Shown piece by piece: positions 25,289-41,276 of a DNA stretch of 64,000 nt. The notes under the pieces were generated by a model. It was not told the DNA's origin. It did no database searches and saw only the letters and a program-made list of their open reading frames with translations. Position 1 is the stretch's first letter, and each line of letters begins with the position of its first letter. Source of the DNA: Burkholderiaceae bacterium (GTDB taxonomy: Bacteria > Pseudomonadota > Gammaproteobacteria > Burkholderiales > Burkholderiaceae_A); assembly GCA_018401615.1 (NCBI GenBank), contig JAGYKN010000001.1:62001-126000 (forward strand). Reading direction: 5' to 3'. Both the position numbers and the translations under genes were made by a program.

Positions 25289-26169
25289 GCCTGCCTGCCC
25301 GATTCCGAAGGGCCCGAATCGGGCTGGTGGGATATGGCGATGTCGGCGCCCGCATCCTCACCCAGCACCCAGGTGGGTCTGGCCCCCGCATCATCCCAAT
25401 CGGGCGGCGCAGCGGGTGGAACCTTGATGTTGCCGCTGATCGGCAACGGGTATCGAGACTCCTCACCCACTGGATTGTTCTCGTGCCACCCTCCGATGCT
25501 CACCCATCACAAGACACGCGAAGCAGGCTCCTGGCAGCCAGTGCCCGGCAGTCTCGGCAGGTCGGCAGCATCGGGGCGGCGGCCATCAGACGGCCAAGGG
25601 GGGTCTACATCAGCACCACCGGGGTCTATGGTGATCACCAGGGCGCCGTGGTGAGAGAGACCTCTGCCTGTCGAACGACATTGCCTCGGTCCCTGCGGCG
25701 GCTTCATGCTGAACGAATCTGGCGATCCCTGGGGTTTCATCGGCTCCGGGTTCCTGGCATCACCGGTCCCGACCGACTCCCATTTGAGCGAATCGCGACC
25801 GCAGCCCCTGCCCTCGTTCCACAGGACGACGTCTACACCAACCACATTGATGCCAACGATCTGGCGAGGATCTGCTGGGTCGCACTCTGGAGGGGACGCC
25901 CTGGTCGGGCCACCAATACCGTCATGGAGGGCGACCTCAAGATGGGAGACTACCTCGATGCTGTGGCCCTGGCCGCTGGCCTGCCAAGGGTGCCGAGGAT
26001 CTCCAGGGCCGAGCTCGATGAGGCGGTGCGCAGTGGCCGGGTGAGCCCGATGATGGCGAGCTTCATGCGAGACTCTCGTCGTGTCAGGAGCAGCCGGCTC
26101 GAGGCCGACCTTCGAATGACGCTGCAGACCCCCTGCCTGGAGGCACTCTTGAAAAAAACCCTCGGCTAA
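25285..26169 (+). CDS. NAD(P)-binding Rossmann-fold protein of the SDR/epimerase type
   Basis: A 294-residue protein with an N-terminal nucleotide-binding loop GLVGYGDVGARIL, a Thr-Thr-Gly-Val-Tyr segment (YISTTGVYGD) holding the usual catalytic Tyr region of extended short-chain dehydrogenases, and VYTNHIDANDLARICWVAL, typical of YeeZ/NAD-dependent epimerase-like proteins. The substrate is unknown. It starts with TTG overlapping the livF stop and ends overlapping the convergent selD by 4 bases. Confidence 0.7.
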
Positions 26170-27218
26170 GACTGCAGTTGAAGCAGGGCCTCACCGGGCC
26201 GGACCGCCTCCATCTGCCCAATCTCTGCAGCGCTCTCAAAGCCCTCTCGATGCAAGATGGCAAGGACATCATCGACCGTCTCTGGGGCGCAGGAGATCAA
26301 GAGACCCCCACTCGTCTGTGGGTCCGTGACCAGCGAGCGATCCTCGTGGCCCAAGCCGTCGGGACCAACAGCGGCACCATAGGCATCCCAATTCCTGTCG
26401 GATGCGCCCGTGACATGGCCGGCCGCAATCATCTCCCTGACCCCTTCGATCACTGGAAGCCGGCCAAGCCTGAGGACGGCCGCGAGGCCCGATCCCCGAG
26501 CCATCTCAAGGGCATGGCCCGCCAGGCCAAAGCCGGTGACATCTGTGATGCCATGGACCCCATCGAGCTCAGCCAGCATGGGGCCCGGCGTGTTGAGCTG
26601 CGTGGTGTTCTCAATCATCTGTTCGTAGGCCCTGCCCTCGAAGCGACCAGACTTTTTCAAGGCGGCCGACAAAATACCGACCCCAAGCGGCTTGCTAAGG
26701 ATGAGTCGGTCCCCGAGCCTGGCATCTGCATTGCGGCGGACCCGACTCGGATGGACCAGGCCCATCACCACAAGCCCATAGATGGGTTCGATGGAATCGA
26801 TGGTGTGGCCCCCCGCAATGGGGATGCCGGCAAGGGAACACATGGCGCGTCCACCATCGAGGATCCGCCCGATTGTCGATGTGCTCAGCAGGCTCAGGGG
26901 CATCCCAACCAGGGCAAGCGCCATGATGGGCCTGCCTCCCATGGCGTAGACATCACTGATCGCATTGGTGGCGGCGATTCGGCCAAAGTCGTAGGGGTCA
27001 TCGACGATCGGCATGAAGAAGTCTGTGGTGGCGACGAGCGCCTGATCATCGTTGAGCAGATAGACCGCTGCATCGTCTGCTGTCTCAATGCCCACCAAGA
27101 GCTCGGCCGGCATGGGCAGGCCAGAGGCCCCCTTGAGAATCTCAGTGAGCACACCGGGCGCAATTTTGCAGCCACAGCCACCACCGTGGGAGAGGGTTGT
27201 CAGTCGAGGTTCAGTCAT
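26166..27218 (-). CDS. selD: Selenophosphate synthase SelD/SenC
   Basis: A 350-residue selenide,water dikinase that makes selenophosphate, the activated selenium donor. The catalytic N-terminal loop SHGGGCGCKIAPG has cysteine (residues 15 and 17) and lysine 18, equivalent to Cys17, Cys19 and Lys20 of the E. coli enzyme, so it is the cysteine and not the selenocysteine form. TDFFMPIVDDPYDFGRIAATNAISDVYAMGG and ADARLGDRLILSKPLG are strongly conserved. It overlaps the upstream senB by 8 bases, so the two are cotranslated. selA, selB, selC and mnmH (ybbB) are not in the window. In this context it fits SenC of the selenoneine pathway. Confidence 0.93.
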   Translation of the reverse strand: MTEPRLTTLSHGGGCGCKIAPGVLTEILKGASGLPMPAELLVGIETADDAAVYLLNDDQALVATTDFFMPIVDDPYDFGRIAATNAISDVYAMGGRPIMALALVGMPLSLLSTSTIGRILDGGRAMCSLAGIPIAGGHTIDSIEPIYGLVVMGLVHPSRVRRNADARLGDRLILSKPLGVGILSAALKKSGRFEGRAYEQMIENTTQLNTPGPMLAELDGVHGITDVTGFGLAGHALEMARGSGLAAVLRLGRLPVIEGVREMIAAGHVTGASDRNWDAYGAAVGPDGLGHEDRSLVTDPQTSGGLLISCAPETVDDVLAILHREGFESAAEIGQMEAVRPGEALLQLQS

Positions 27219-28278
27219 GGCGCGGGGCATTCTTCACAGGGGGTTGGGGGCCTGGTTGGGGTCCATGCCCAAGGATATCCCGGAGAAGCCGCACCAGTGA
27301 GGCGGCCTCTGCGGCGCCGTCTGTGAGGCGATACCGGACCGTTTCGCCGGCCGCCTGAAGGGCGGCCCGATCTCGTGGAGAGGCAATCCAGGCGCCAATG
27401 CGTGCGGCCAGCGCCTGGGCATCCCCCTGGGGAAACCAGCCAGGATGATCTTCACCAAGGATGCCGATGTGCCCCGGGATGCGGCTGGCCACGACTGGCA
27501 GCCCCACTGCCACAGCCTCTGCGAGGACCAGTGCCCCGCCCTCAAGGCGCGAGGGCGCAATGAGGAGATCGGCTGACTGCATGGCGGACTCAACCGTGTC
27601 ATGCGAGACCTGTCCATCACGTTGAATCGGCAGGTCATGCAACTCAACAAGGCTGCGCAACTGGTCATCCAGTGCGGCATCCAGCACCCCGCCCAGGTGC
27701 CGCAGGTGAATCGACGCCTGCTGATCCCGCACGAGTGTTGCAATGGCGCGATAGGCCGTGAGGGGATCCTTCTCTGGCCGCACATGGCCCACCAGGAGGG
27801 CCTCGATGCTGCCTCTGCGCCCGCCTCTGCTGGGCGGCCGCTCGGCGAGTGGCCTTGCCTCAAAGGCGCTGGTCTGCGCAATCACCCTGCAGATTGGCGC
27901 ATCTGGGATGCATCGCTGGAGGCACTCACAGGCATCTGACTGAAGGCCCACCACGGCGGCTGCGCCGCGGATGGATTGTTGAGCCTGGTCTGCCCAGTCG
28001 GGCTGGGTCAGGCCCTGAAGATCGCCATAGAGGTCTGTCCCGGTGAGGACCACTGCATAGGGAATTGACAGCTCACGAAAACGCTCAGCAGCCAGGTGAC
28101 TGCGCCTGGCATGCAAGAGGAGTCCCGCACGGATGCCGGATAGATCGGCAGGTGCTGGTGGACCCACATGGACACGGGCAGGCAGCCCGGACTGCGTCAG
28201 AAGCGCCTCGTGGCGAGAAGCAGTTCGCCAATTGCCGGAGCCAGTCTGCGGGCCGTATGGCGTCACAATCAGAATCAT
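27211..28278 (-). CDS. senB: Selenosugar synthase SenB (glycosyltransferase-like)
   Basis: A 355-residue GT-B fold protein. The N-terminus has YGPQTGSGNWRTASRHEALL and VLTGTDLYGDL; the C-terminal donor-binding domain has LLVGHVRPEKDPLTAYRAI, ADLLIAPSRLEGGALVLAEAVAVGLPVVAS. This is the small glycosyltransferase group found beside selD in bacteria. In the published selenoneine pathway, SenB joins selenophosphate and a UDP-sugar to give a selenosugar. Assignment here rests on sequence pattern plus the selD-senB-senA-egtD neighbourhood. It starts only about 26 bases from the divergent senA start, so the two share a very small promoter region. Confidence 0.85.
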   Translation of the reverse strand: MILIVTPYGPQTGSGNWRTASRHEALLTQSGLPARVHVGPPAPADLSGIRAGLLLHARRSHLAAERFRELSIPYAVVLTGTDLYGDLQGLTQPDWADQAQQSIRGAAAVVGLQSDACECLQRCIPDAPICRVIAQTSAFEARPLAERPPSRGGRRGSIEALLVGHVRPEKDPLTAYRAIATLVRDQQASIHLRHLGGVLDAALDDQLRSLVELHDLPIQRDGQVSHDTVESAMQSADLLIAPSRLEGGALVLAEAVAVGLPVVASRIPGHIGILGEDHPGWFPQGDAQALAARIGAWIASPRDRAALQAAGETVRYRLTDGAAEAASLVRLLRDILGHGPQPGPQPPVKNAPRHD

Positions 28279-28294: not shown

Positions 28295-28304
28295 GGACAG
28301 CGTG

Positions 28305-29555
28305 ATGTTGTCCGTTCGTCATTGCAAGGCCCAGCAGCTTGAGACCGCCTACGCGCAGTGTCTTGTGTCGCTCCTCGCCTGCCTGGAGCGGTTCTCCCTC
28401 TCGCTCAATGCATTTTCCAGCCATGTGCCACATCTGGAGCAGGTCAATCCCCCGCTCTGGGAATTTGGTCACGTGGCTTGGTTCACTGAACATTGGGTCC
28501 TGCGAAACCCAGGCCGCGCCCTTGGCAGGGGCCTCAAGGACCCCAATCTGCGCGCCTCGATGCGCCCCTCGCTGCTCCCTGAGGCCGACGCCCTCTTTGA
28601 CTCCGCAACCATCCCCCACGGGGATCGATGGCAGCTCGAGCAGCTGGGTCGCTCTGGCATTGAGCACTACCTCTCCAGGACCTTTAAAGAAGCCATTGCA
28701 ATCCTCCAACTCGATGCCACCAGAGAGACAGCCCTCTACTTTCATCGGCTGAGCATTGCGCACACCTGGATGCACCTTGAGGCGCTTGAAATGACGGCCC
28801 AGACCCTGGGGTTTGAGCGGACCGAATCAGCAGAGCCGATGACCCTCGACGTCAGAGACCAGGCCCCTCTTGCGATCGATGCCCAGGCGCTACGCGCATC
28901 TCCGGATCGTGATTGCTTTTTCTTTGACAATGAATTCGGCGGGTTAGAGGCCGACATCGGGGCCTTTGAAATTGATGCCCAGCCAGTCTCCCTGGGGGCC
29001 TTCTGGGCATTTGTCGACGATGGCGGTTACGAGCGGGAATCGTTGTGGACAGACCATGGCTGGGCCTGGAAGACCAGGCAGGCCGCGGCCGGTCCGCTGC
29101 ACTCGCGCAGGCAGGGCGATCTGCTCTTGTGCCGAGTTGGAGCGCAGTGGGCCCTTGGAGATGCCGCCCAACCCGTCTGCCATGTCTGCCTACATGAGGC
29201 GCAGGCCTGGTGCAATTGGGCCGGCCGACAGCTCCCCACAGAGGCCCAATGGATGGCTGCGGCGTCTGCGGGCATGCGCTGGGGAAGGGTCTGGGAATGG
29301 ACAAGCAGCCCCTTTGTGCCCTTCTCGGGTTTCACAGCCCACCCCTATGAGGCCTACTCCGAACCATGGTTCGGGGCAGACCATTGGGTCCTCAAGGGGG
29401 CCTGCGCCCAGACGCATCCGATGCTGCGAGACCGTCTCTTTCGAAACTTCTACCGACCACACCGACAGGATGTCTTCGCTGGCTTTAGGAGTGTTCAAGC
29501 TGCCGTGGCCGGATGCGCCACGAATTCGACAAAACCACCAGAACGACTCCGGTAG
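28305..29555 (+). CDS. senA: Selenoneine synthase SenA (EgtB-like non-heme iron enzyme)
   Basis: About 416 residues, organised like EgtB: an N-terminal DinB-like domain and a C-terminal formylglycine-enzyme-like domain. The three-histidine iron site is visible: FGHVAWF (His56) and the HX3HXE motif HTWMHLE (His153, His157, Glu159). The C-terminal domain has VSLGAFWAFVDDGGYERESLW, CHVCLHEAQAWCNWAGRQLPTEAQW and RNFYRPHRQDVFAGFRS. EgtB couples cysteine-type thiols to hercynine; SenA does the equivalent with a selenosugar. Adjacent senB and selD and the lack of EgtC/EgtE genes favour SenA over EgtB. Start is ATG 28305 (GTG 28302 possible). The 3' end overlaps the convergent egtD by 61 bases. Confidence 0.85.
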   Translation: MLSVRHCKAQQLETAYAQCLVSLLACLERFSLSLNAFSSHVPHLEQVNPPLWEFGHVAWFTEHWVLRNPGRALGRGLKDPNLRASMRPSLLPEADALFDSATIPHGDRWQLEQLGRSGIEHYLSRTFKEAIAILQLDATRETALYFHRLSIAHTWMHLEALEMTAQTLGFERTESAEPMTLDVRDQAPLAIDAQALRASPDRDCFFFDNEFGGLEADIGAFEIDAQPVSLGAFWAFVDDGGYERESLWTDHGWAWKTRQAAAGPLHSRRQGDLLLCRVGAQWALGDAAQPVCHVCLHEAQAWCNWAGRQLPTEAQWMAAASAGMRWGRVWEWTSSPFVPFSGFTAHPYEAYSEPWFGADHWVLKGACAQTHPMLRDRLFRNFYRPHRQDVFAGFRSVQAAVAGCATNSTKPPERLR

Positions 29556-30472
29556 CAGGCGGCCACCGCAAAGCCTGCCTCGTTTAGGAGGGCCTCGAAA
29601 GACGCCTCAGTGTATTTGTAAGCATTCTCGGTGTGCAGGGTCTGTCCTGCCTTAAAGCGTCGGCCACCGCCGGGCCAACGAATCTCGAGGTCTCGTCTTG
29701 CCTCCAGGTGCATCTCCACGCGAGAGGCCTCCTGGTTAAACCGAGCTCGATGTCGCCAGTCGGCTGGCTCGAAGTCTGTCTGGACCGACCGATTGAGCAC
29801 CCGCAAGACATTGAGATTAAATGCCGCTGTCACCCCCAAGGCATCGTCATAGGCCGCCTCGAGCAGCCGAGCAGGCTTGATGAGATCGATGCCGATGATC
29901 AGTGCAGCAGCCTGGTGCTCTCTGATTAAACCCCGCAGAAAGTCGGTGGCCTGGGCTGGGTGGAAATTACCAATGCTCGATCCAGGATAGAAAAACACCC
30001 TCGGGCCATTGCCTGGGACCCTCCCCTCAAGGCAGTTCGGCGGGAGTCCTCTCGAAAAATCCACCACCAGGCCTGCGACCGCGGGCACACCGGGACGCTC
30101 TGATAACGACTCGAGCGCCTCGCGCAGGTAGGCCTCTGAGACATCCACGGCGAGGTAGCCAGTCGGCAGAATGCTCCCAAAGAGGCGGGCAGCCTTGGCA
30201 CAGTCTGCGGCACCAAGATCAATGAGACTGCAGCCGGTCGGCAGTTGTTTTGCGATGGCCTCATGGGCCACCGAGAAGATCTCTAACTCCTCACGCGTGG
30301 CGGGGTATTCATCGAGCAGTGTGATGGCACCAAAGAGGTGAGACCCAAGGGCATCGTAGAAAAAAGCGGGCGAGACTTCTGCCTGTGGCGACATCAGACC
30401 AGCGTAGGCCGATAGCCTGAGGTCATCAGGCTCTTGAGTCCGCAGGACGAACATGGGGATCGAGTCTTTCAT
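29495..30472 (-). CDS. egtD: L-histidine N(alpha)-methyltransferase EgtD
   Basis: A 325-residue SAM-dependent enzyme that trimethylates histidine to hercynine, the acceptor for ergothioneine and selenoneine synthesis. Family features: FFYDALGSHLFGAITLLDEYPATREE, the SAM site SLIDLGAADCAKAARLF, FFYPGSSIGNF, and IGIDLIKPARLLEAAYDDALGVTAAFNLNVL. Length is normal for EgtD. It is convergent with senA (61-base overlap) and divergent from the phnD-like gene with 47 bases between starts. Confidence 0.93.
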   Translation of the reverse strand: MKDSIPMFVLRTQEPDDLRLSAYAGLMSPQAEVSPAFFYDALGSHLFGAITLLDEYPATREELEIFSVAHEAIAKQLPTGCSLIDLGAADCAKAARLFGSILPTGYLAVDVSEAYLREALESLSERPGVPAVAGLVVDFSRGLPPNCLEGRVPGNGPRVFFYPGSSIGNFHPAQATDFLRGLIREHQAAALIIGIDLIKPARLLEAAYDDALGVTAAFNLNVLRVLNRSVQTDFEPADWRHRARFNQEASRVEMHLEARRDLEIRWPGGGRRFKAGQTLHTENAYKYTEASFEALLNEAGFAVAACYRSRSGGFVEFVAHPATAA

Positions 30473-30519
30473 GGCCGCAGTAAAACACAGACCTTGAGGC
30501 CTTGCCTTAAACTGCGACC

Positions 30520-31374
30520 ATGAAAACTAAACTCATCGTTCTCTTGATCTCTCTGGGCATCTCGACCTCGGGCATGGCAGAGCAGGTCCTTCGAATCTCC
30601 AGCATTCCCGAGGAGGCCGCCACCGAGCAGGTTCGAAAGCTCAAGCCTCTTGCCGATTACCTTGGCCGTGAGGTGGGCGCAAGAGTCATCTTCACGCCCG
30701 TCAACGATTACCCAGCTGCGGTCGAGGCCCTGGTCAACAAGAAGATCGATCTGGTCTGGCTTGGTGGCTCCACCTTCATACAGGCCAAGATAAGGTCCAA
30801 AGACATGGTGGTGCCGCTGTTGCAACGGCAGGAAGACACCGACTTTAAGTCGATCTTCATCACCCGGGCTGGCTCAGGCATCACACGGCTTGAAGACCTC
30901 AAGGGCAAGACCGTCAGCTTTGGCTCGCCCTCGAGCACCTCTGGTCACCTCATGCCGAGGAAGTACCTCATGGATGTTGGCCTTGAGCCCGAGCGAGATT
31001 TCAAACGCATCGCCTACAGCAAGGCCCACGATGCCGCCATCGCAGCGGTGGCAAGCGGGCAGGTCGATGCTGCTGCGCTCGACATCACCGTCTGGCAGAA
31101 ATTTGTCTCTGAGAATCGGGTGGACACCACCAAGGTGGTGTCCTTTCACACCACCCCGGGCTTTTTCAACTACAACTGGACGGTCCATCGCGACATGCCC
31201 AGCGAGCTCCAGCAGAAGATCATTGCAGCGTTCTTAAAGCTCAGCCCAAAGACCGCCGAAGGCAAGGAGATCCTGACCCTCAACCGTGCAACGCGCTACA
31301 TCCGCACGGAGGCCAAGAATTACGACGGGATCGAGGCAGCTGCCCGAGCTGCGGGCCTGCTGGCAACCCCCTAG
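30520..31374 (+). CDS. PhnD-family periplasmic binding protein, putative selenium oxyanion receptor
   Basis: A 284-residue protein with a signal peptide (cleavage near GMA-EQ). The body is of the PhnD/phosphate-phosphonate-like type: KLKPLADYLGREVGARVIFTPVNDYPAAVEALVNKKIDLVWLGG, LKGKTVSFGSPSSTSGHLMPRKYLM and the hydrophobic DAAALDITVW. There are no phn C-P lyase genes nearby. PhnD-like proteins next to selD and senB-type glycosyltransferases have been described as putative selenate-type transporters, and the location 47 bases from egtD supports that. The ligand (selenite, selenate or other) is inference. First gene of a four-gene operon. Confidence 0.82.
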   Translation: MKTKLIVLLISLGISTSGMAEQVLRISSIPEEAATEQVRKLKPLADYLGREVGARVIFTPVNDYPAAVEALVNKKIDLVWLGGSTFIQAKIRSKDMVVPLLQRQEDTDFKSIFITRAGSGITRLEDLKGKTVSFGSPSSTSGHLMPRKYLMDVGLEPERDFKRIAYSKAHDAAIAAVASGQVDAAALDITVWQKFVSENRVDTTKVVSFHTTPGFFNYNWTVHRDMPSELQQKIIAAFLKLSPKTAEGKEILTLNRATRYIRTEAKNYDGIEAAARAAGLLATP

Positions 31375-31377
31375 CCC

Positions 31378-32193
31378 ATGCTGGCACTGACTGATTGCAG
31401 CCACCTTCACCCCGGGGCTGCTCCAGACCGCTTTGCACTGCGCTCCGTGAGCCTGTCCATCGAGGCTGGTGAGCAGGTCGCCATCATCGGACCGTCTGGG
31501 GCTGGCAAGACGAGTCTCATCCACCTCCTTGCCCTCGCAATGCGGCCAACCCGAGGAGATCTCTTGTTTGGAGGGGCCTGTCCCTGGGGTCAGTCGGGCC
31601 GCCAGCGGCATGGTCTGCGCTCCACCCTGCTTCTTGTCCCGCAGGTGCCGCCCCTGCCGCCCCGGCAACGGGTCGTCACCAGCCTCATGGCTGCGAGGCT
31701 CCCAGCCATGAGCCTGCTGCGCAGCCTGGCCTCCCTCTTCTACCCCCTGGACATTCCAGCTGCCCATCAGGCGCTCTGTGCATTCGACCTCGAAGAGAAG
31801 TTGTTTGAGCGCGTGGATCGACTCTCTGGTGGAGAGCGTCAACGGGTGGGCCTCGCCCGTTGCCTCATGACACGGGCTCAACTCTGGCTGCTCGATGAGC
31901 CGCTCTCGGCACTCGATCCGGTCAAGGCACGGGCAGCACTTGCCACTGTCTTATCGGCTGCAGAGGCTGCCAATGCCACCCTGGTGGTGAGCCTCCATCA
32001 GGTCGATCTTGCCCTGGCCCACTTTCCCAGGATCATCGGCCTGCGTGACGGCGAAGTGGTCTTTGATGTGCGGCGTCAAGACCTGCGAGACAACCAAGTC
32101 GCGGCCCTCTACAACGGTGAGACGGCCTCCCCTGAGGCATCAGCAGACCCCTGGCCAGAGGAGTCATTGATCCCCGTCACCGGCTGCAGATGA
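31378..32193 (+). CDS. PhnC-type ABC transporter ATPase (putative selenium oxyanion import)
   Basis: A 271-residue ATPase. Walker A GPSGAGKTSL (residues ~40-49), signature LSGGERQRVGLARCL, Walker B LWLLDEPLSAL and the switch histidine in VVSLHQVDLAL. The PLPPRQRVVTSLMAARLP stretch and the Leu-Ala-Ser-Leu-Phe segment fit the PhnC group. It begins 3 bases after the binding-protein stop and overlaps the first permease gene (ATGA). Confidence 0.85.
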   Translation: MLALTDCSHLHPGAAPDRFALRSVSLSIEAGEQVAIIGPSGAGKTSLIHLLALAMRPTRGDLLFGGACPWGQSGRQRHGLRSTLLLVPQVPPLPPRQRVVTSLMAARLPAMSLLRSLASLFYPLDIPAAHQALCAFDLEEKLFERVDRLSGGERQRVGLARCLMTRAQLWLLDEPLSALDPVKARAALATVLSAAEAANATLVVSLHQVDLALAHFPRIIGLRDGEVVFDVRRQDLRDNQVAALYNGETASPEASADPWPEESLIPVTGCR

Positions 32194-33023
32194 CGGCCCA
32201 TGCCGGCATGCTTCGCGATCCAGCGTGGACAAGGCGTTGGCTCGGCCTGAGCATTGCCGTTGTCATCCTGTGGCCCCTTTTTCTCATCACAGAGTTTCAA
32301 CCCGGGCGGCTACTGGGCAGCGAGTCGCTCCGGGAGACGGGGCGTTTTCTAGAGAGTTTTCTGCCGCCGAGAATCGATCCTGACTTCCTCCTCCTGGTGG
32401 TCACAGCTGCCTGGAAGACTGTTGCCATGGCCACTGCTGGCCTCTGCCTGGCCCTGCTGGCAGCCATTCCCATGGCCCTTCTCATCACCGAGCGGCTCTC
32501 GATCGGCGCCACCGAGGGCAGAATGCATCCGCTGGCCAGGCTTGCACGGACGCTGCTGCGTGGGGTCATGGCCGTCTTGAGGTCGGTGCCAGAGTTGGTC
32601 TGGGCCCTCATGTTTGTTCGAGTCGTGGGGCTTGGTCCAACAGCGGGAGTCCTGGCCATCGCCATCACCTACAGCGGCATGCTGGGAAAAGTCTATGCGG
32701 AGATCCTTGAGAGCGGCCCCCCTGAGACCGCCAAGACCCTCCTGCAAAATGGGGCTGGCCGACTCCAGGCGTTGGCCTACGGATTGCTGCCCCAGAACGC
32801 CACCGAACTCACCTCCTACACGGTCTATCGCTGGGAGTGTGCAATTCGCTCATCGGTTGTCTTGGGCTTTGTTGGGGCGGGCGGCCTCGGACAGGAGTTA
32901 GAGCAGTCGATGGCAATGTTTGCAGGCGGTGAGGTGGCCACCATGCTGCTTGCATTTGTGGTCTTGGTTGGCCTGGCCGATATCCTGAGCCGGCTGCTGC
33001 GGCGGCAGCTCGAGGCAGCATGA
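32190..33023 (+). CDS. PhnE-type ABC transporter permease 1
   Basis: A 277-residue membrane protein. It has an N-terminal helix (SIAVVILWPLFLITEF), a multi-helix core, and the PhnE-family coupling region VYAEILESGPPETAKTLLQNGAGRLQALAYGLLPQ, plus YTVYRWECAIRSSVVLGFVGAGGLGQEL. It forms the channel with the second permease. It overlaps both neighbours by 4 bases. Confidence 0.87.
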   Translation: MTAHAGMLRDPAWTRRWLGLSIAVVILWPLFLITEFQPGRLLGSESLRETGRFLESFLPPRIDPDFLLLVVTAAWKTVAMATAGLCLALLAAIPMALLITERLSIGATEGRMHPLARLARTLLRGVMAVLRSVPELVWALMFVRVVGLGPTAGVLAIAITYSGMLGKVYAEILESGPPETAKTLLQNGAGRLQALAYGLLPQNATELTSYTVYRWECAIRSSVVLGFVGAGGLGQELEQSMAMFAGGEVATMLLAFVVLVGLADILSRLLRRQLEAA

Positions 33024-33808
33024 TCGATCCGGCCGCCAACCAGCCTTACCGAATCAGCTCGAGCATGCGCGGCAGTCGCTGCTGGGCCTGCTGGACCCTG
33101 GTGCTCCTGCTCACCCTCTTGCTGCTCAGCATCCTGAGCCTGGACCTCGAGGTCCGGGTGATCTTTCAGGCAGACAGCCTTCGCAGGCTTGCCAGTTTTG
33201 TGGGCGAACTCTTCCCACCGAATGTCTCGCCAGATTTTCTCGAACGAATTTTCCATGCCAGCTTAGAGACCCTGGCCATGTCTGCCCTTGGGACACTGCT
33301 GGCCATGCTCTTTGGACTGATCTTGGCTGTCCTGAGGCATCCCGTCACCAGCATCTTGCTCAATGTCCTTCGGGCAATACCAGACCTCGTCTGGGCGGCC
33401 TTGCTCCTCATCTCAGCAGGGCTCGGGCCATTTGCGGGAACGCTTGCATTGGCGCTCCACACGACCGGTGTGCTGGGCAGGCTCTTCTCGGAGGCCCTTG
33501 AGAATGCCCCCAGACACCCCGAGGAGACACTCCGAGTCCTCGGGGCCTCGCGCGCCCAGAGGTTTTTCTACGCCACGCTTGTCCAGGTGATGCCGCAGCT
33601 CATGGCCTATAGCCTCTACCGATGGGAAAACAACATCCGTGCCGCCACCGTGCTGGGCGTGGTGGGCGCTGGCGGGTTGGGTCAGATGCTCATGGTGCAC
33701 ATGAGCCTCTTTCAGATGAGCAGCATGTCAACCGTGCTGCTGGCCATGTTGGTGTTGGTGCTGTTGGTCGACCAGCTTAGCGCCAGACTTCGACGGGCCC
33801 TCCAGTAG
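33020..33808 (+). CDS. PhnE-type ABC transporter permease 2
   Basis: A 262-residue paralogue of the preceding permease, with the same layout and a matching coupling loop (LFSEALENAPRHPEETLRVLGASRAQRFFYATL) and YSLYRWENNIRAATVLGVVGAGGLGQML. Two PhnE-type subunits probably form a heterodimer. It ends 7 bases from the convergent ferredoxin-NADP reductase gene. Confidence 0.87.
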   Translation: MIDPAANQPYRISSSMRGSRCWACWTLVLLLTLLLLSILSLDLEVRVIFQADSLRRLASFVGELFPPNVSPDFLERIFHASLETLAMSALGTLLAMLFGLILAVLRHPVTSILLNVLRAIPDLVWAALLLISAGLGPFAGTLALALHTTGVLGRLFSEALENAPRHPEETLRVLGASRAQRFFYATLVQVMPQLMAYSLYRWENNIRAATVLGVVGAGGLGQMLMVHMSLFQMSSMSTVLLAMLVLVLLVDQLSARLRRALQ

Positions 33809-33815
33809 GCGGCGC

Positions 33816-34592
33816 CTACCGTTCGACGAAGGCCCTCTCAATGACATAGTCACCGGGCTGACCCAGGCCAGGCGAGGCCACAAACCCCCGAGCATCGAGG
33901 ATCTCAGCAGTCTCCTTGAGCATCGATGGGCTGCCGCAGATCATGCAGCGATCCTGGCTTGGATCGATTGTGGGCAGTCCAATGTCTGCAAAGAGTTTGC
34001 CAGAGGCGATTGCGGTGGTCAGTCGGCCGGTATGGGAGAACGCCTCTCGCGTGACGGTTGGGTAATAAATGAGTTGGCTCGACACCATCTCTCCGAGGAA
34101 CTCGTGTTGGGGGAGGTCCGTGGAAAGGTAGTCGCCATAGGCCAGTTCACTCACCAGCCTCACCCCATGGATGAGGATCACCCGCTCGAAACGCTCATAG
34201 GTGTCCGGGTCTCGCACGATGCTCATAAATGGTGCCAGGCCGGTGCCCGTTGAGAAGAGATAGAGGTGTCGGCCCGGCCTGAGATCGTCGATGACGAGCG
34301 TGCCAGTGGCCTTGTCTCCAACCAGAATGGGATCGCCCAGCTTGATGTGTTGGAGGCGTGAGGTCAGCAGCCCATCTGGAACCTTGATGGAGAGGAACTC
34401 AAGCTGCTCCTCGTAATTTGGGCTCACCACGCTATAGGCCCTGGCCAGTGGCCGACCATCGATCTCCAGGCCAATCATCACGAAGTGTCCATTCCTGAAT
34501 CGAAAGGACTGGTCTCGGGTGGTGGTAAACGAGAAGAGGGTCTCGTTCCAATGGGTCAGGCTGGTGACGGTCTCAGTTCGATAGGTGGCCAT
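33816..34592 (-). CDS. fpr: Ferredoxin-NADP(+) reductase
   Basis: A 258-residue FAD flavoprotein exchanging electrons between NADPH and ferredoxin or flavodoxin. The FAD-binding PLARAYSVVSP motif (Arg-Xaa-Tyr-Ser), LFSTGTGLAPFMSIVRDPDTYERF, ILIHGVRLVSELAY and CMICGSPSMLKE are present, and it ends FVER rather than with a plant-type C-terminal Tyr. This fits the bacterial subclass also linked to oxidative stress. It is convergent with the second permease. Confidence 0.92.
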   Translation of the reverse strand: MATYRTETVTSLTHWNETLFSFTTTRDQSFRFRNGHFVMIGLEIDGRPLARAYSVVSPNYEEQLEFLSIKVPDGLLTSRLQHIKLGDPILVGDKATGTLVIDDLRPGRHLYLFSTGTGLAPFMSIVRDPDTYERFERVILIHGVRLVSELAYGDYLSTDLPQHEFLGEMVSSQLIYYPTVTREAFSHTGRLTTAIASGKLFADIGLPTIDPSQDRCMICGSPSMLKETAEILDARGFVASPGLGQPGDYVIERAFVER

Positions 34593-35058: not shown

Positions 35059-35643
35059 TCACGCCAGGTCTGCAACCAGCGAGGCCCGCGACTCTGGTGG
35101 GACTGGGTCAAGCGTGACCCTGAGGGCTGGATGGTCGATGCCCATGGCCAGGCCCACACCGTACTTGAGCGCCGCGGCCATGTCTTCGTCGAGCTCAAAC
35201 CGCATGAAGTGAACGCTTGAGGTCTTCTCATCATTCTCGCGCTCAAGGTCTTCATCTGCAATGGCCCAGACCTTCTCACGGCCCTCGACCTGCACCCATA
35301 CCCTTGCCTCGACGCCCTTGAGCTTGCGCAGTTCAACCTTGCGGATCTCGGGGTTCGGGTACTCGATCATCATGGTGGCTTTGAAGTTGCGTCCATCGGG
35401 CACCAGGGGGTTGTATGCATCGAGCTCATCCTGGATGCCCTCGGCCTCAAATGTCTTTTCAATCCGCAGCATCTCTTGAATCTGATAGCGAATGGTCTTC
35501 TCATCTTCAAAGAGCAGGCTCACATGCTCGCCAAGGGCAATGCGACGAATGTTCTTATGGGCCATGACCTCGGCCCGGAACTGATTGCGTATGCGAGCGT
35601 AATGCTCGAGGGTCCAGAGGGATTCGGCCGTGATTTTTCCCAT
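35059..35643 (-). CDS. DUF3501 family protein
   Basis: About 194 residues, matching DUF3501, a cytoplasmic family almost always found beside rubrerythrin and a GlpC-like Fe-S protein. Recognisable text: LWTLEHYARIRNQFRAEVMAHK, HVSLLFEDEKTIRYQIQEMLR, VPDGRNFKATMMIEY and SSVHFMRFEL. GGAGA lies 7 bases before ATG 35643, so I use that start rather than 35661. The biochemical role is unknown. It is 49 bases downstream of the Fe-S gene. Confidence 0.88.
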   Translation of the reverse strand: MGKITAESLWTLEHYARIRNQFRAEVMAHKNIRRIALGEHVSLLFEDEKTIRYQIQEMLRIEKTFEAEGIQDELDAYNPLVPDGRNFKATMMIEYPNPEIRKVELRKLKGVEARVWVQVEGREKVWAIADEDLERENDEKTSSVHFMRFELDEDMAAALKYGVGLAMGIDHPALRVTLDPVPPESRASLVADLA

Positions 35644-35692
35644 GTTTACTTCTCCAGTCATGATGACATCCTTTCCTAGTGGTGTATTGAAA

Positions 35693-37051
35693 TCAGAGTC
35701 CGTAGGCGCGGGCGAGCAGGCTCAGTGGGTGGGCCACCTTGCCGGCGCCCTTGCCCGCCATTCCCTGCTCAATGTGATGGCCTGCAAGCTGACAGTCCGA
35801 GGCAATGAAATCGGGAAGACCCCCGCCTTCTGCCGCCTGAGGATGCTCTGCCATCTGGCGAAAGACCGGGCCGCCGATTTTAAGGGCCGTCTCGTGAAAC
35901 TCCTTCTTGACCCCCCAGGTGCCTGCATGGCCGGAGCAACGCTCCACGGTATTGACGGCGGTGTTGGGCACCATCTCGAGGGTCTCTCGTGTCTTCTGAC
36001 CAACATTCTGGACGCGAAGGTGACAGGCCACGTGGTAGGAGACATTGCCCAGGCCTTGTTTGAAGTCAGTCTTTAGGAGCGCGTCTTTGTGCCGGAGTTG
36101 AAAGTACTCGAATGGATCAAACATGGCGGCCTTTACAGCCTGTGCGTCTGCGTCATTCGGAAACATCAGCGGCAGCTCTTGCTTGAACATGAGGGTGCAA
36201 GACGGAATTGGTGTGACGATTGCATAGCCCTGTCTGGCCAATGCCGCCAACTGAGGGAGGGTCTTTTTGGCCAGTGCGGCCACGGAGTCGAGATCTCCGA
36301 GCTCGAGCTTGGGCATGCCACAACAGGCCTGTTTCTCAACCAGGATGTAGGGAATCTCGTTGTGTTCCAGGACCTTGATGAGGTCGTGACCAATCCCAGG
36401 CTCATTCCAGTTGACATAGCAGGTGCTGTAGATCGCCACCTTGCCCAGAGAGCGGGCACCGTTCTGAACGGGATGATCGCTTGACCGCTTGGCATGCTTC
36501 TCAAAGACGGCGCTGGTGTACTCGGGCAGCCAGGCATCCTTGTGGACCCCAAGGAGCTTCTCGCCCAAGGCACGGGCGGGCTTGATCTTTGCGATGGCAT
36601 TGACGGCCTGGACCACCACCGGGATGGTGGCGAGCTTGCCGTTGGCCGATGTGTTGGAGAGCGTGACATCTCGAAACGTCGTGGGCGTGCCCTTCTTGAA
36701 CTGAATGGCCTTTGCCCGAAGCATGGTGTGGGGGAAGTCCAGGTTCCATGGGTGGGGCGGCACATAGGGGCATTTGGTCATGTAGCAGACATCACAGAGG
36801 TAGCACTGGTCGACCACATCCCAATAACGCTTCCTGTCGACACCATCGAGCTCGCCGGTCTGGCCGTCGTCGATGAGGTTAAAGAGGGTGGGAAAGGAAC
36901 CACAGAGGCTCACGCAACGGCGGCAGCTGTGGCAGATGTCAAAGATGCGCTCCATCTCGTCGAAGCATTCTTTTTCATCGTAGAAGGCTGGATTGAGCCA
37001 GTCGAGCGGGTGCCGGGTGGGGGCCTCTAGGGAGCCTTCGCGAACAGTCAT
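35693..37051 (-). CDS. GlpC-like (Fe-S)-binding oxidoreductase subunit
   Basis: About 452 residues with two N-terminal ferredoxin-type clusters, ICHSCRRCVSLCGSFP and CYLCDVCYMTKCPYVPPHPW, and two C-terminal cysteine-rich CCG-type domains (EKQACCGMP, ERCSGHAGTWG). It resembles the cytoplasmic/membrane-associated electron-transfer proteins GlpC and HdrD. There is no flavin domain, so it must pass electrons between partners. Its place between rubrerythrin and DUF3501 suggests it supplies reducing power for peroxide removal (inference). Confidence 0.88.
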   Translation of the reverse strand: MTVREGSLEAPTRHPLDWLNPAFYDEKECFDEMERIFDICHSCRRCVSLCGSFPTLFNLIDDGQTGELDGVDRKRYWDVVDQCYLCDVCYMTKCPYVPPHPWNLDFPHTMLRAKAIQFKKGTPTTFRDVTLSNTSANGKLATIPVVVQAVNAIAKIKPARALGEKLLGVHKDAWLPEYTSAVFEKHAKRSSDHPVQNGARSLGKVAIYSTCYVNWNEPGIGHDLIKVLEHNEIPYILVEKQACCGMPKLELGDLDSVAALAKKTLPQLAALARQGYAIVTPIPSCTLMFKQELPLMFPNDADAQAVKAAMFDPFEYFQLRHKDALLKTDFKQGLGNVSYHVACHLRVQNVGQKTRETLEMVPNTAVNTVERCSGHAGTWGVKKEFHETALKIGGPVFRQMAEHPQAAEGGGLPDFIASDCQLAGHHIEQGMAGKGAGKVAHPLSLLARAYGL

Positions 37052-37145
37052 TTGAATTTCTCTCTGTATGGTCTTGGTGGTGCCTGGTTCGAAAACCACA
37101 GGGCCCTGGAGATTGCCAAGGCCCTGCAGTTCACGAACCTAAAGA

Positions 37146-37568
37146 CTAGGCAATGTGAGTGTCTAAGGCCTTTTGAAACTTGTTGGCATGCGAGCGCTCG
37201 GCCTTGGCCAGCGTCTCAAACCAATCAGCGATCTCATCAAACCCTTCGTTGCGTGCATCCTTGGCCATGCCGGGATACATGTCGGTGTACTCGTGCGTCT
37301 CACCAGCGACTGCCGAACGCAGGTTGGATGCAGAGTCTCCGATTGGCAGGTCTGTTGCAGGATCCCCCACGAGTGCAAGATAGTCGAGGTGGCCATGGGC
37401 GTGCCCAGTCTCACCTTCGGCCGTTGCACGAAACAGCGAGGCAACTTCGGAATGGCCTTCAACGTCGGCCTTGTTTGCAAAATACAGATAACGACGATTG
37501 GCTTGGCTCTCGCCCGCAAACGCATCCTTGAGATGCTGGTGCGTCTTGGTACCTTTGAGTTGAGGCAT
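37146..37568 (-). CDS. Rubrerythrin (short, no rubredoxin domain)
   Basis: A 140-residue ferritin-like di-iron protein: DAFAGESQANRRYLYFANKAD, RATAEGETGHAHGHLDYL, VAGETHEYTDMYPGMAKDARNEGF and AKAERSHANKFQKAL carry the expected Glu/His iron ligands. The C-terminal rubredoxin Cys4 domain of classical rubrerythrin is missing, as in the sulerythrin-type. Known role of the family: reduction of hydrogen peroxide. First gene of the rbr-FeS-DUF3501-DUF2237-fpr strand. Confidence 0.9.
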   Translation of the reverse strand: MPQLKGTKTHQHLKDAFAGESQANRRYLYFANKADVEGHSEVASLFRATAEGETGHAHGHLDYLALVGDPATDLPIGDSASNLRSAVAGETHEYTDMYPGMAKDARNEGFDEIADWFETLAKAERSHANKFQKALDTHIA

Positions 37569-38985: not shown

Positions 38986-39074
38986 GGCCGTGATGCTAGT
39001 CGATCCACCCTGGGTCATGTCCTTATTCCGATAAGTTATTAAGCCCGGCACCGATGCAGGCTAGAGTACGGGCC

Positions 39075-40121
39075 ATGAAAGACATCCTAAAAGTTTCCTT
39101 GGCCGGCCTGATGGTCCCCTTAACCTTGCGATCTCTATTGACCCTGATGGTCCCCTTAACGCTGATCGCGCTCATCGGCCTGGCTGGCCCGGCCGCTCAC
39201 GCCCGCACCACACCTGGTCCGTTGGTCTCTGTCCAACAACTCCAGGGTCTCATTCAAACCGGCAAGGTCGTGGTGCTCGACACCCGTGAACTGCTCCAGA
39301 CCGATCAGAAGACGCCCAACTTCACCGCCAGTCATATTCCAGGCGCCCAACCCCTGCCATATTCACTCTTTCGCGGCCCAAAAGAATCCCCAGGTGCCGT
39401 TGTGCCAATTGCAACCCTTGAAAAAATCCTCTTGCCGCTTGGCATGAAAACCACCGACCCGATCGTGCTCCTGGGCTCTGGCTCCGATGCCACTGAGTTC
39501 GGCGGCGTGGCCCGCGTTTACTGGACGTTAAAGGCCGCTGGCTTCAAAGACCTCGCCATCTTGGATGGCGGCCTTGGGGCCTGGATGGCCGCCAAGCTGC
39601 CCCTAGAGAGTGGCCAAGCCAAGCCTCGCAGCCCGCGGTCTGGCGACAACAGGCTCCAGTACAACCCATCGCTGCTGCTCTCCACCCCCCAGGCACACGC
39701 ACTTGCCAGCCCTCAGGCTGCGATGCGGCCGGTCTTTGTCGATGCCAGGCCCGAGGACTTCTTTCTCGGTCAGATGCGGCATCCGTCGGCCGCCCGATGG
39801 GGCACCATTGCACAGGCCAAGTGGTTCGACTCTGAGGAATGGTTCGTGCCCAATACGGGGCGCCTGCTGCCAAAGGAGCGGATCCTGACAGTGGCAAAAC
39901 GAGAGGGGCTCTTGCAGCAGCCCACCGTTCAGTTTTGCAACACTGGGCATTGGGCAGCAACCAACTGGTTCATCCTCTCGGAGGTTCTGGGGCAGCCCAA
40001 TACCCTCATGTATGCAGACTCTGTGGTGGGATGGAGCCAGGCCGGGCTGCCCATGGACAACGAACCAAGCCGCGCCACCGCATTGCTGTGGCAGGCCAAG
40101 GGAAGCGGTGTTGCTCGTTAG
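39075..40121 (+). CDS. Exported double-rhodanese sulfurtransferase
   Basis: About 348 residues. After a long hydrophobic signal segment ending near PAAHA come two rhodanese domains. The second has the active-site loop QFCNTGHWAATN with the reactive Cys; the first shows VVVLDTRELLQ and ILDGGLGAW but no Cys, the usual inactive partner. It likely moves sulfane sulfur (thiosulfate or persulfide) in the periplasm. An 18-base direct repeat in the signal-peptide region (39107-39124 and 39143-39160) duplicates LMVPLTL. The YeeE-like transporter starts 6 bases later. Confidence 0.85.
   Translation: MKDILKVSLAGLMVPLTLRSLLTLMVPLTLIALIGLAGPAAHARTTPGPLVSVQQLQGLIQTGKVVVLDTRELLQTDQKTPNFTASHIPGAQPLPYSLFRGPKESPGAVVPIATLEKILLPLGMKTTDPIVLLGSGSDATEFGGVARVYWTLKAAGFKDLAILDGGLGAWMAAKLPLESGQAKPRSPRSGDNRLQYNPSLLLSTPQAHALASPQAAMRPVFVDARPEDFFLGQMRHPSAARWGTIAQAKWFDSEEWFVPNTGRLLPKERILTVAKREGLLQQPTVQFCNTGHWAATNWFILSEVLGQPNTLMYADSVVGWSQAGLPMDNEPSRATALLWQAKGSGVAR
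39107..39160 (+). repeat. 18-base direct repeat within the rhodanese signal peptide
   Basis: The sequence CCTGATGGTCCCCTTAAC occurs at 39107-39124 and 39143-39160, 36 bases (12 codons) apart, in frame. It encodes the repeated hydrophobic LMVPLTL and lengthens the signal segment. Confidence 0.8.
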
Positions 40122-40127
40122 AAAGAC

Positions 40128-41276
40128 ATGACCCGAGTCGAAAAACCCAGCCTCGTCGCGCTGGGTCTCCTGGGCACCTTGGTGGTGATGTTCATTGCAG
40201 GCCTGCAGGCGGGCCTGCTCGTGCTCATTGGGATTGGTTTTGGCCTGATCCTGCAGGGTTGCCGCTTTGGATTCACCTCGGGCTGGCGGCAATTCATCCT
40301 CAAGCGTGAGGCAGCCGGCATCACGGGGCAGATGCTTCTCATGGCTGCAGCCGCCCTGCTCGCCCTCCCCCTGCTGGCCTGGTTCCCAACCGAGATGACG
40401 GGTGCGGTGGCCCCAATCACCTGGAGTCTCTTGATTGGCGCCTTTGTCTTTGGTGCAGCCATGCAGGTGGCAGACGGCTGCGGCTCCGGCAGCCTAAATC
40501 GAGCAGGTGCTGGGGCCGCACTCTCTTGGGTGGTCCTGCCAACCTTTATTGCGGGAAGTTTCATTGGCGCCTCACACCAGCCTGACTGGCTCTCTCTTGG
40601 CGGGCCGCTCGATGCCCTTGCAGCCCAGCCGGGGCAGGGATTCTCAGTGGACCTTCTGGCCCTTGTCGGCCTGGGACCAGCACTCCTCATAACCCTTGCA
40701 GGCTGCGCGGCCGTGGTCTGGTGGGCCTGGCGTGCCCAGGACCGGGCGGGGCTCAGCAGCCACTCGAACAAACTCGTCGGGCACTGGCTCCTCGGGGGGT
40801 TGCTGCTGGCTGTGCTCTACGGCGTGCACCTGATCGTGGCCGGTCAGCCCTGGGGGATTGTCTATGGCCTGGGCCTCTGGGGCGCCAAGGCCGCCTCGGG
40901 CCTTGGCATGGACCTGAGCGCCGATCCGTTTTGGTCCTCAGCCGCCCATGCGCAGCGGCTCCTGGACCCCATTGTGTGGGACATCACCTCGCTCACCAAT
41001 ATCGGGCTCTTGTTTGGTGCCATGGCTGCAGCACGCTGGCGGTGGCGGGCCTCATCGGGCAAGGCTGAGAGTCCAATCAGACCCCACCATTGGGCTGCAG
41101 GCGCCCTGGCCGGCCTTGTGATGGGCTACAGCGCTCGACTCGCCTTTGGCTGCAACATTGGCAGCTTCCTGGGCGGGGTGGCCTCCGCAAGCCTCCATGG
41201 CTGGGTCTGGTTTGTCATGGCCTACCTCGGGTCGATTCTCGGTGTGCGCCTGCGACTTCGGCTGGCCATGCCATGA
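40128..41276 (+). CDS. YeeE/YedE family membrane transporter (thiosulfate- or selenium-related)
   Basis: A 382-residue, about ten-helix membrane protein. It has the conserved cysteine motifs of the family: LILQGCRFGFTSGWRQFIL, AAMQVADGCGSGSLNRAGAG and YSARLAFGCNIGSFLGG. E. coli YeeE (TsuA) imports thiosulfate; related YedE proteins are linked to selenium metabolism. Beside an exported rhodanese, sulfur-compound uptake is the simplest reading. Given the selenium cluster 7 kb away, a selenium role is possible. The stop codon lies inside a 14-base tandem repeat. Confidence 0.83.
   Translation: MTRVEKPSLVALGLLGTLVVMFIAGLQAGLLVLIGIGFGLILQGCRFGFTSGWRQFILKREAAGITGQMLLMAAAALLALPLLAWFPTEMTGAVAPITWSLLIGAFVFGAAMQVADGCGSGSLNRAGAGAALSWVVLPTFIAGSFIGASHQPDWLSLGGPLDALAAQPGQGFSVDLLALVGLGPALLITLAGCAAVVWWAWRAQDRAGLSSHSNKLVGHWLLGGLLLAVLYGVHLIVAGQPWGIVYGLGLWGAKAASGLGMDLSADPFWSSAAHAQRLLDPIVWDITSLTNIGLLFGAMAAARWRWRASSGKAESPIRPHHWAAGALAGLVMGYSARLAFGCNIGSFLGGVASASLHGWVWFVMAYLGSILGVRLRLRLAMP

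Follow-up and report, generated by a model that had tools for sequence, protein, structure and literature searches.

A TIGR04553-family ABC transporter operon beside selenoneine genes is a candidate selenite importer related to marine PhnD1 proteins

Genes for synthesis of the antioxidant selenoneine have been described in Variovorax paradoxus as the senA-senB-senC cluster, a set of three genes in a report whose main text does not contain the word "transport" (PMC10891094). According to a review from 2022 and a paper from 2024, no high-affinity or specific selenium transporter is known. Of two genome surveys, one puts forward YedE as a candidate selenium transporter, without reference to PhnD, and the other reports an ATP-binding cassette (ABC) ATPase near orphan selD genes, which could be the system described here. 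Here we examine a four-gene ABC transporter operon in a 64,000-nucleotide stretch of a Burkholderiaceae genome (assembly GCA_018401615.1, contig JAGYKN010000001.1, positions 62,001 to 126,000), hereafter called the window. Homologs of SenA, SenB, and SelD (SenC) are all encoded beside this operon, and the window adds the ABC importer and egtD to the gene set of the Variovorax cluster. We consider it probable that the four genes encode a dedicated uptake system for an oxyanion of selenium, most likely selenite, that supplies selenoneine synthesis.

The substrate-binding protein (SBP) of the operon has the family, direct ligand contacts, and fold of the PhnD1 proteins of marine picocyanobacteria (PDB entries 7S6G, 5LQ5, and 5LQ8). 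PhnD1 has been published as a binder of phosphite and phosphate, and the phnD1 gene occurs in all 97 picocyanobacterial genomes examined by those authors. Most strains lack genes for phosphite or phosphonate use, and neither phosphite nor methylphosphonate supports growth of two strains; the authors call the retention of phnD1 paradoxical and propose that it serves a constitutive phosphate transporter (PMC10284923). Elsewhere, its in vivo function is called unknown (PMC5700983). Neither paper has the string "selen" anywhere in its main text. A second group of described proteins, the phosphite-binding PtxB proteins (5O2J, 5LV1, and 5JVB), has the superfamily and the STS/His pocket in common with the window SBP, but these proteins form a separate clade and carry AYFGPLS where the family of the window SBP carries (V/A)W.GG.T.

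That family is TIGR04553 (ABC_peri_selen), a hypoth_equivalog entry of NCBIfam named "putative selenate ABC transporter substrate-binding protein". We found no functional study in the literature under this name or accession and none that links PhnD and selenium. An earlier note on this DNA had read the operon as a likely selenium oxyanion importer and proposed comparing the binding protein with PhnD and with the selenate-type subfamily. In that comparison, the window SBP passes TIGR04553 (324.4 bits; cut-off 250) and fails the PhnD model TIGR03431 (164.9 bits; cut-off 261.1). Both solved PhnD1 chains likewise pass TIGR04553 (337.6 and 301.6 bits) and fail PhnD; by profile score, therefore, the solved marine PhnD1 proteins belong to this family, a relationship that the earlier note missed. 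The same note stated that PhnD-like proteins near selD are known from genome surveys; the only basis found for this is the NCBIfam label.

A profile search of 200 genomes from the order of the host identified 45 with a protein over the TIGR04553 cut-off, at 324-407 bits. The next match listed below the family is a 220-bit fragment in genome G104, followed by one of 171 bits. In a tree of 102 rows, built by a quick method and with some long outgroup branches, all 79 rows of the family group together in a single clade (SH-aLRT 96). This clade splits into the 45 rows of the order and a cyanobacteria-Chloroflexota half of 34 rows, which includes both PhnD1 chains, one actinobacterial row, and one unnamed row. 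When 30 of the 32 fetched rows of the latter half were scored (all but L103 and L162), 30 of 30 passed at E 1e-75 (~250 bits). The window SBP sits in the sister clade of PhnD1, not inside the PhnD1 clade, and does not cluster with PtxB, whose three chains fall in the outgroup with the sub-cut-off relatives. By these tests on sequences, TIGR04553 appears to be a real unit, kept apart from PhnD, PtxB, and the sub-cut-off relatives. The earlier note had held that placement within PhnD or phosphite-binding groups would speak against selenium uptake; the protein lies outside PhnD and PtxB, yet its clade and pocket are common to phosphite-binding PhnD1.

This likeness extends to individual residues. 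The predicted anion contacts of the window SBP are Y64, S139-T140-S141, H170, N217 (with D188), and the capping residue Y218, and the phosphate contacts of 7S6G are Y44, S124-T125-S126, H156, Y204, and D203. Residues Y64, S139, T140, S141, H170, and Y218 (window numbering) are conserved in 79/79 family rows, and the D203 position (window 217) is D or N across these rows. Where 7S6G has D203/N174, the window SBP has N217/D188, and N at 217 is paired with D at 188 throughout the 17 rows of the window's subclade, an apparent swap that would retain one acid in the pocket. A structure model of the window SBP has a predicted local distance difference test score (pLDDT) of 90.4, and its best PDB matches are the three PhnD1 entries, which are tied (7s6g, Z 30.6, root-mean-square deviation 3.5, 263 aligned; 5lq8, Z 30.4; 5lq5, Z 30.1). 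PhnD1 and the window SBP are 31-38% identical in structural alignments.

We then consider where the operon lies in the 200 genomes of the order, taking selD, senB, mnmH, and selA as selenium genes and 15 kb as the distance limit. At least one of these genes is near 13/45 family loci versus 1/104 sub-cut-off relatives (p 5e-7), and selD alone is near 11/45 versus 0/104, where the 104 are those sub-cut-off matches that were listed and the G104 fragment is left out. The positional link between the operon and selenium genes is thus more than chance. In different genomes, the operon lies near selenoneine, selenouridine, or selenocysteine genes. Genome G076 carries senA, selD, the SBP, ATPase, and two permease genes, and egtD on one strand, followed by a convergent senB; its SelD, EgtD, SenB, and SBP are over their cut-offs, and the best SenA match is below (379.4 versus 420 bits). 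In both G102 and G179, senB, selD, an unnamed open reading frame (ORF), and the SBP and ATPase genes stand in series. As in the window, egtD faces the SBP gene in G003, G049, and G113, which have different family codes. In G058 and G171, mnmH and selD adjoin the importer. Two members of the window's own family, G064 and G184, carry selA within ~11-13 kb of it; G184 also has a formate dehydrogenase alpha ORF over cut-off near the operon, and the gene listing for G064 shows an ORF that matches it in length and nearly matches it at the start.

The order SBP-ATPase-permease-permease, or the same with fused permeases, is found again at most of the 45 loci of the order, matching the layout in the window. 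The permeases are fused as one ORF of ~475-577 aa in ten of the 45 (L036, L037, L038, L039, L040, L043, L046, L048, L051, and L052). Less of the layout is visible in L042, L059, L064, and L072, which have short contigs or poor gene calls. Genes in these loci were called by amino-acid log-odds, with training on window genes, and some starts remain truncated; calling by longest ORF was dropped because it picked shadow ORFs in GC-rich DNA.

Evidence that the PhnD1 proteins are themselves linked to selenium comes from the other half of the clade. Among the best 80 of 594 loci in one scan of genome contigs, eight have a selenium gene within 10 kb: selD and mnmH in L093, L116, and L118; mnmH in L110; selD in L130, L133, and L141; and senA and senB in L145. 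Selenium-adjacent loci thus occur in both halves of the 79-row clade. At L145, which belongs to the sister clade, senA, senB, and the SBP gene follow in succession on one strand, and both Sen proteins score over their cut-offs. No selenium gene was found within 10 kb of the Prochlorococcus loci scanned. The loci with phnD1 near mnmH (L110, L093, L116, and L118) are from freshwater Cyanobium-like genomes, and three of them are also near a SelD fusion. In many cyanobacterial loci, mnmH at first seemed to match over the SBP gene, but this was an artefact, as the query ORF continued through the antisense SBP frame; we retained only matches within the true MnmH portion, which are those in the same four loci. 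In 50 genomes picked from the best 80 of 594 loci, selD is over cut-off in 44 and mnmH in 41, and all but G225 have at least one of the two. Named carriers in the fetched set span nine family names, among them Nodosilineaceae, Leptolyngbyaceae, Coleofasciculaceae, Geminocystaceae, Scytonemataceae, and Oscillatoriaceae.

An even sample of 194 genomes from the phylum Cyanobacteria has the family in 22, mnmH in 27, and selD in 36. The gene for the selenouridine enzyme MnmH is present in 22/22 genomes with the family versus 5/172 without it (p 1.5e-24), and selD is over cut-off in 22/22 versus 14/172 (p 7e-20); these p values ignore relatedness, and it counts against our interpretation that the 22 carriers are not independent draws. 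Other members of the PhnD superfamily do not track mnmH in the same sample (10/60 versus 17/134, p 0.5). We give mnmH more weight than selD in picocyanobacteria because the SelD fusions scanned there also match TIGR04369. These NADH-dehydrogenase-like/SelD fusions (L163, L164, L166, and L169) pass both selD and the TIGR04369 "fusion_not_SelD" model (841-1063 bits; cut-off 700), and they retain the CxGCAAK motif with its Cys and Lys. In the view of an older paper, fusions of this kind may be true enzymes (PMC1273633). Taken as genome evidence, these data suggest that the PhnD1 proteins themselves are selenium linked. It is quite possible, though short of probable, that TIGR04553 as a whole, with the PhnD1 proteins of Prochlorococcus and marine Synechococcus among its members, represents the missing bacterial importer dedicated to high-affinity selenite uptake.

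Several further observations weigh against a role in selenium import. PhnD1 proteins, the nearest relatives with binding data, bind phosphorus anions (phosphite at 0.05-4.3 µM and phosphate at 7-182 µM), and the co-purified ligand in one PhnD1 crystal contains phosphorus. Expression of phnD1 is reported to be induced by phosphorus deficiency in Synechococcus WH8102, and its conserved neighbor in picocyanobacteria is tesA, not a selenium gene (PMC10284923). Within the order, 32/45 family loci have none of the four selenium genes within 15 kb, some of them on short contigs. The family occurs in G159 and G195, fragmented assemblies of one genus, with none of the four selenium genes. The reverse is found in G017, a 99% complete genome of the window's own genus with selD, senB, and mnmH and no TIGR04553 match over cut-off; the importer is therefore not obligatory. 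In Cyanobacteria, other PhnD-superfamily members track selD somewhat (19/60 versus 17/134, p 0.003). Finally, per genome in the order, the selenium genes are more frequent with the family than in the rest (senB, 30/45 versus 33/155; selD, 40/45 versus 103/155; mnmH, 41/45, counting the broken copy of the host, versus 101/155; selA, 22/45 versus 33/155), but the odds ratios of 3.5-7.4 compare with 3.2-3.8 for the sub-cut-off relatives, among which G104 is counted here. The co-occurrence with senB that the earlier note had proposed to examine is thus present, but it proves little at the genome level in this order, because the sub-cut-off relatives co-occur with selenium genes nearly as well.

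Some of these data would suit an importer of phosphate or phosphite, as proposed for PhnD1, with selenium genes as neighbors through linkage or shared redox-stress regulation. In its favor, all direct phosphate contacts of 7S6G are kept in the 79 family rows, allowing D or N at 217; the window model best matches PhnD1 structures; and, as reported, PhnD1 binds both anions in vitro, its crystal ligand contains phosphorus, and the WH8102 gene responds to phosphorus deficiency. Other studies, however, saw no induction of phnD1C1E1 under phosphorus depletion in other strains (cited in PMC10284923; also PMC5700983), and the scarcity of phosphite and methylphosphonate genes, with the two strains that do not grow on these compounds, also argues against it. 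A phosphorus role does not predict the 22/22 co-presence with MnmH or the interleaving with sen genes, and we regard this explanation as unlikely.

If the operon is instead a selenite importer, the imported species would be HSeO3-/SeO3 2-, a pyramidal XO3 anion. The SBP would grip its three oxygens through Y64, the S139-T140-S141 loop, and H170, and Y218 would cap the fourth position, where phosphite has a hydrogen, phosphate has an oxygen, and selenite has only a lone pair. Transport inward would then fall to the pair of PhnE-like permeases, powered by the PhnC-like ATPase. Inside the cell, selenite would be reduced to selenide, a step for which no dedicated gene was identified here, and SelD would activate selenide to selenophosphate. 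From this, SenB would make a selenosugar, which SenA would join to EgtD-made hercynine to give selenoneine. The chemistry of SenA, SenB, and SelD and the ligand binding of PhnD1 are taken from the literature. Binding of phosphite would, on these terms, be chance mimicry of selenite.

Both transport of selenium and the choice of selenite over selenate are steps that we infer, with the ligand reasoning carried over to the window protein from its PhnD1 relatives in the family. The name of TIGR04553 says selenate, whereas the ligand suggested here is selenite; uptake of a selenium oxyanion is the reading best supported by context, and the "selenate" identity is unproven. Selenate is a stable oxidised form of selenium in oxic water, and together with the family name this speaks for import of selenate, or of another form such as an organoselenium acid. 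Selenite would fit better, however, because PhnD1 binds phosphite more tightly than tetrahedral phosphate and appears to require three oxygens; Synechococcus PhnD1 does not bind hypophosphite, which its authors take to mean that three trigonally arranged oxygens are needed (PMC10284923). The same result argues against two-oxygen seleninates. Selenate seems less likely because the fourth position would be capped and because sulfate, which has the shape of selenate, was dismissed as a ligand in a PhnD1 crystal (PMC10284923) and seems not to bind. These arguments concern PhnD1 and not the window protein, and the ligands named for PhnD1 include no selenium compound; our literature searches found no published binding test of any selenium anion with PhnD1 or a TIGR04553 protein. 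On balance, we give import of selenate or of another selenium form only a slim chance.

Within the window, the ORFs and family scores agree with the earlier description of a four-gene Phn-like operon at 30520-33808, separated from egtD by 47 bases and neighbored by senA, senB, and selD (Table 1). By ORF coordinates, the SBP and ATPase genes are separated by 3 bases, and two 4-base overlaps follow. The ATPase translation carries the Walker A motif GPSGAGKT together with LSGGE and LLDEP. A promoter scan of 30400-33900, which includes the gap to egtD, found no sigma-70-like site. SenA, SenB, and SelD occur together as expected of a selenoneine locus, with only SelD of these over its cut-off. SenB is far under the TIGR04348 cut-off (173-229 versus 300 bits) in the window genome and in G017, G147, G064, G108, and G184; these six genomes share one family code, and their SenB proteins make up a divergent group. 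The claim that no phosphonate gene is present is partly backed: models for carbon-phosphorus lyase, PtxD, and PhnYZ-type proteins gave no match among the rows shown for 30 distinct window proteins of ~54 called, in a search that covered those 30 and not the remainder of the window or the genome as a whole.

Table 1. Features of the transporter operon and the adjacent selenoneine genes (positions in the window)
Feature	Coordinates	Strand	Remarks
SBP (TIGR04553 family, periplasmic)	30520..31374	+	ORF, 284 aa, signal-like N-terminus
ABC ATPase, PhnC-like	31378..32193	+	Best model PhnC, 171.8 bits, under cut-off 266.1
ABC permease 1, PhnE-like	32190..33023	+	PhnE, 205.9 bits, just under cut-off 216.7
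ABC permease 2, PhnE-like	33020..33808	+	PhnE, 242.5 bits, over cut-off 216.7
Divergent intergenic stretch, egtD/transporter operon	30473..30519		47 bases
EgtD, histidine methyltransferase (makes hercynine)	29495..30472	-	292.7 bits versus cut-off 290.9, just passes
SenA, selenoneine synthase	28302..29555	+	Best match, 397.5 bits, just under cut-off 420
SenB, selenosugar synthase, divergent	27211..28278	-	Best match, 199.5 bits, under cut-off 300
SelD/SenC, selenophosphate synthetase	26166..27230	-	515.8 bits versus cut-off 299; GCGCK motif, Cys, no in-frame TGA

The genome that contains the window has been assembled to 1.62 Mb at 86% completeness and carries a single TIGR04553 gene. Its mnmH lies outside the window (G000:C8:24386-25295), where it is split into two overlapping matches, one of them interrupted by an in-frame TAG; this could reflect a pseudogene or an error of assembly. 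The match is uninterrupted in G017 and G147, which belong to the same genus. No selA was found in this genome at E 1e-20. Because its mnmH appears broken and no selA was found, selenoneine may be the main use of selenium in this organism, with the caution that the mnmH break could be an assembly error.

Two further gene groups lie near the importer. At 35059-37568 is a trio encoding a DUF3501 protein, a cysteine-rich-domain protein, and a rubrerythrin; judged by eye from translations, a similar trio seems present ~6 kb from the importer in G125 (L054:494-3292). At 39054-41276, 5 kb from the importer, a rhodanese-domain protein is followed by a YeeE/YedE-type membrane protein (Sulf_transp) with weak matches, under cut-offs, to the selenium-linked YedE/FdhT and TsuA models, and this pair could possibly serve sulfur or selenium transport. 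With the adjoining egtD, these rhodanese-domain and YeeE/TsuA-like genes would be in keeping with an operon that imports a sulfur oxyanion (sulfite or thiosulfate) for sulfur or ergothioneine-type metabolism. We consider this very improbable, as MnmH and SelD track the family, in a count that covered selenium genes only, and as PhnD1 was stabilised only by phosphorus sources in a screen said to include sulfur sources (PMC10284923).

Our findings make the TIGR04553 family a concrete and widespread candidate for a selenium importer, some members of which have already been purified and crystallised under another name. If this assignment is true, selenoneine producers would gain an uptake step, the database labels "selenate" and "phosphonate" would both be corrected, and selenium nutrition would be tied to abundant ocean phototrophs. 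If PhnD1 is a selenite importer, the paradox of picocyanobacteria that keep phnDCE, most of them without any known gene for phosphite or phosphonate use, would be resolved, and the window would hold the same importer feeding selenoneine.

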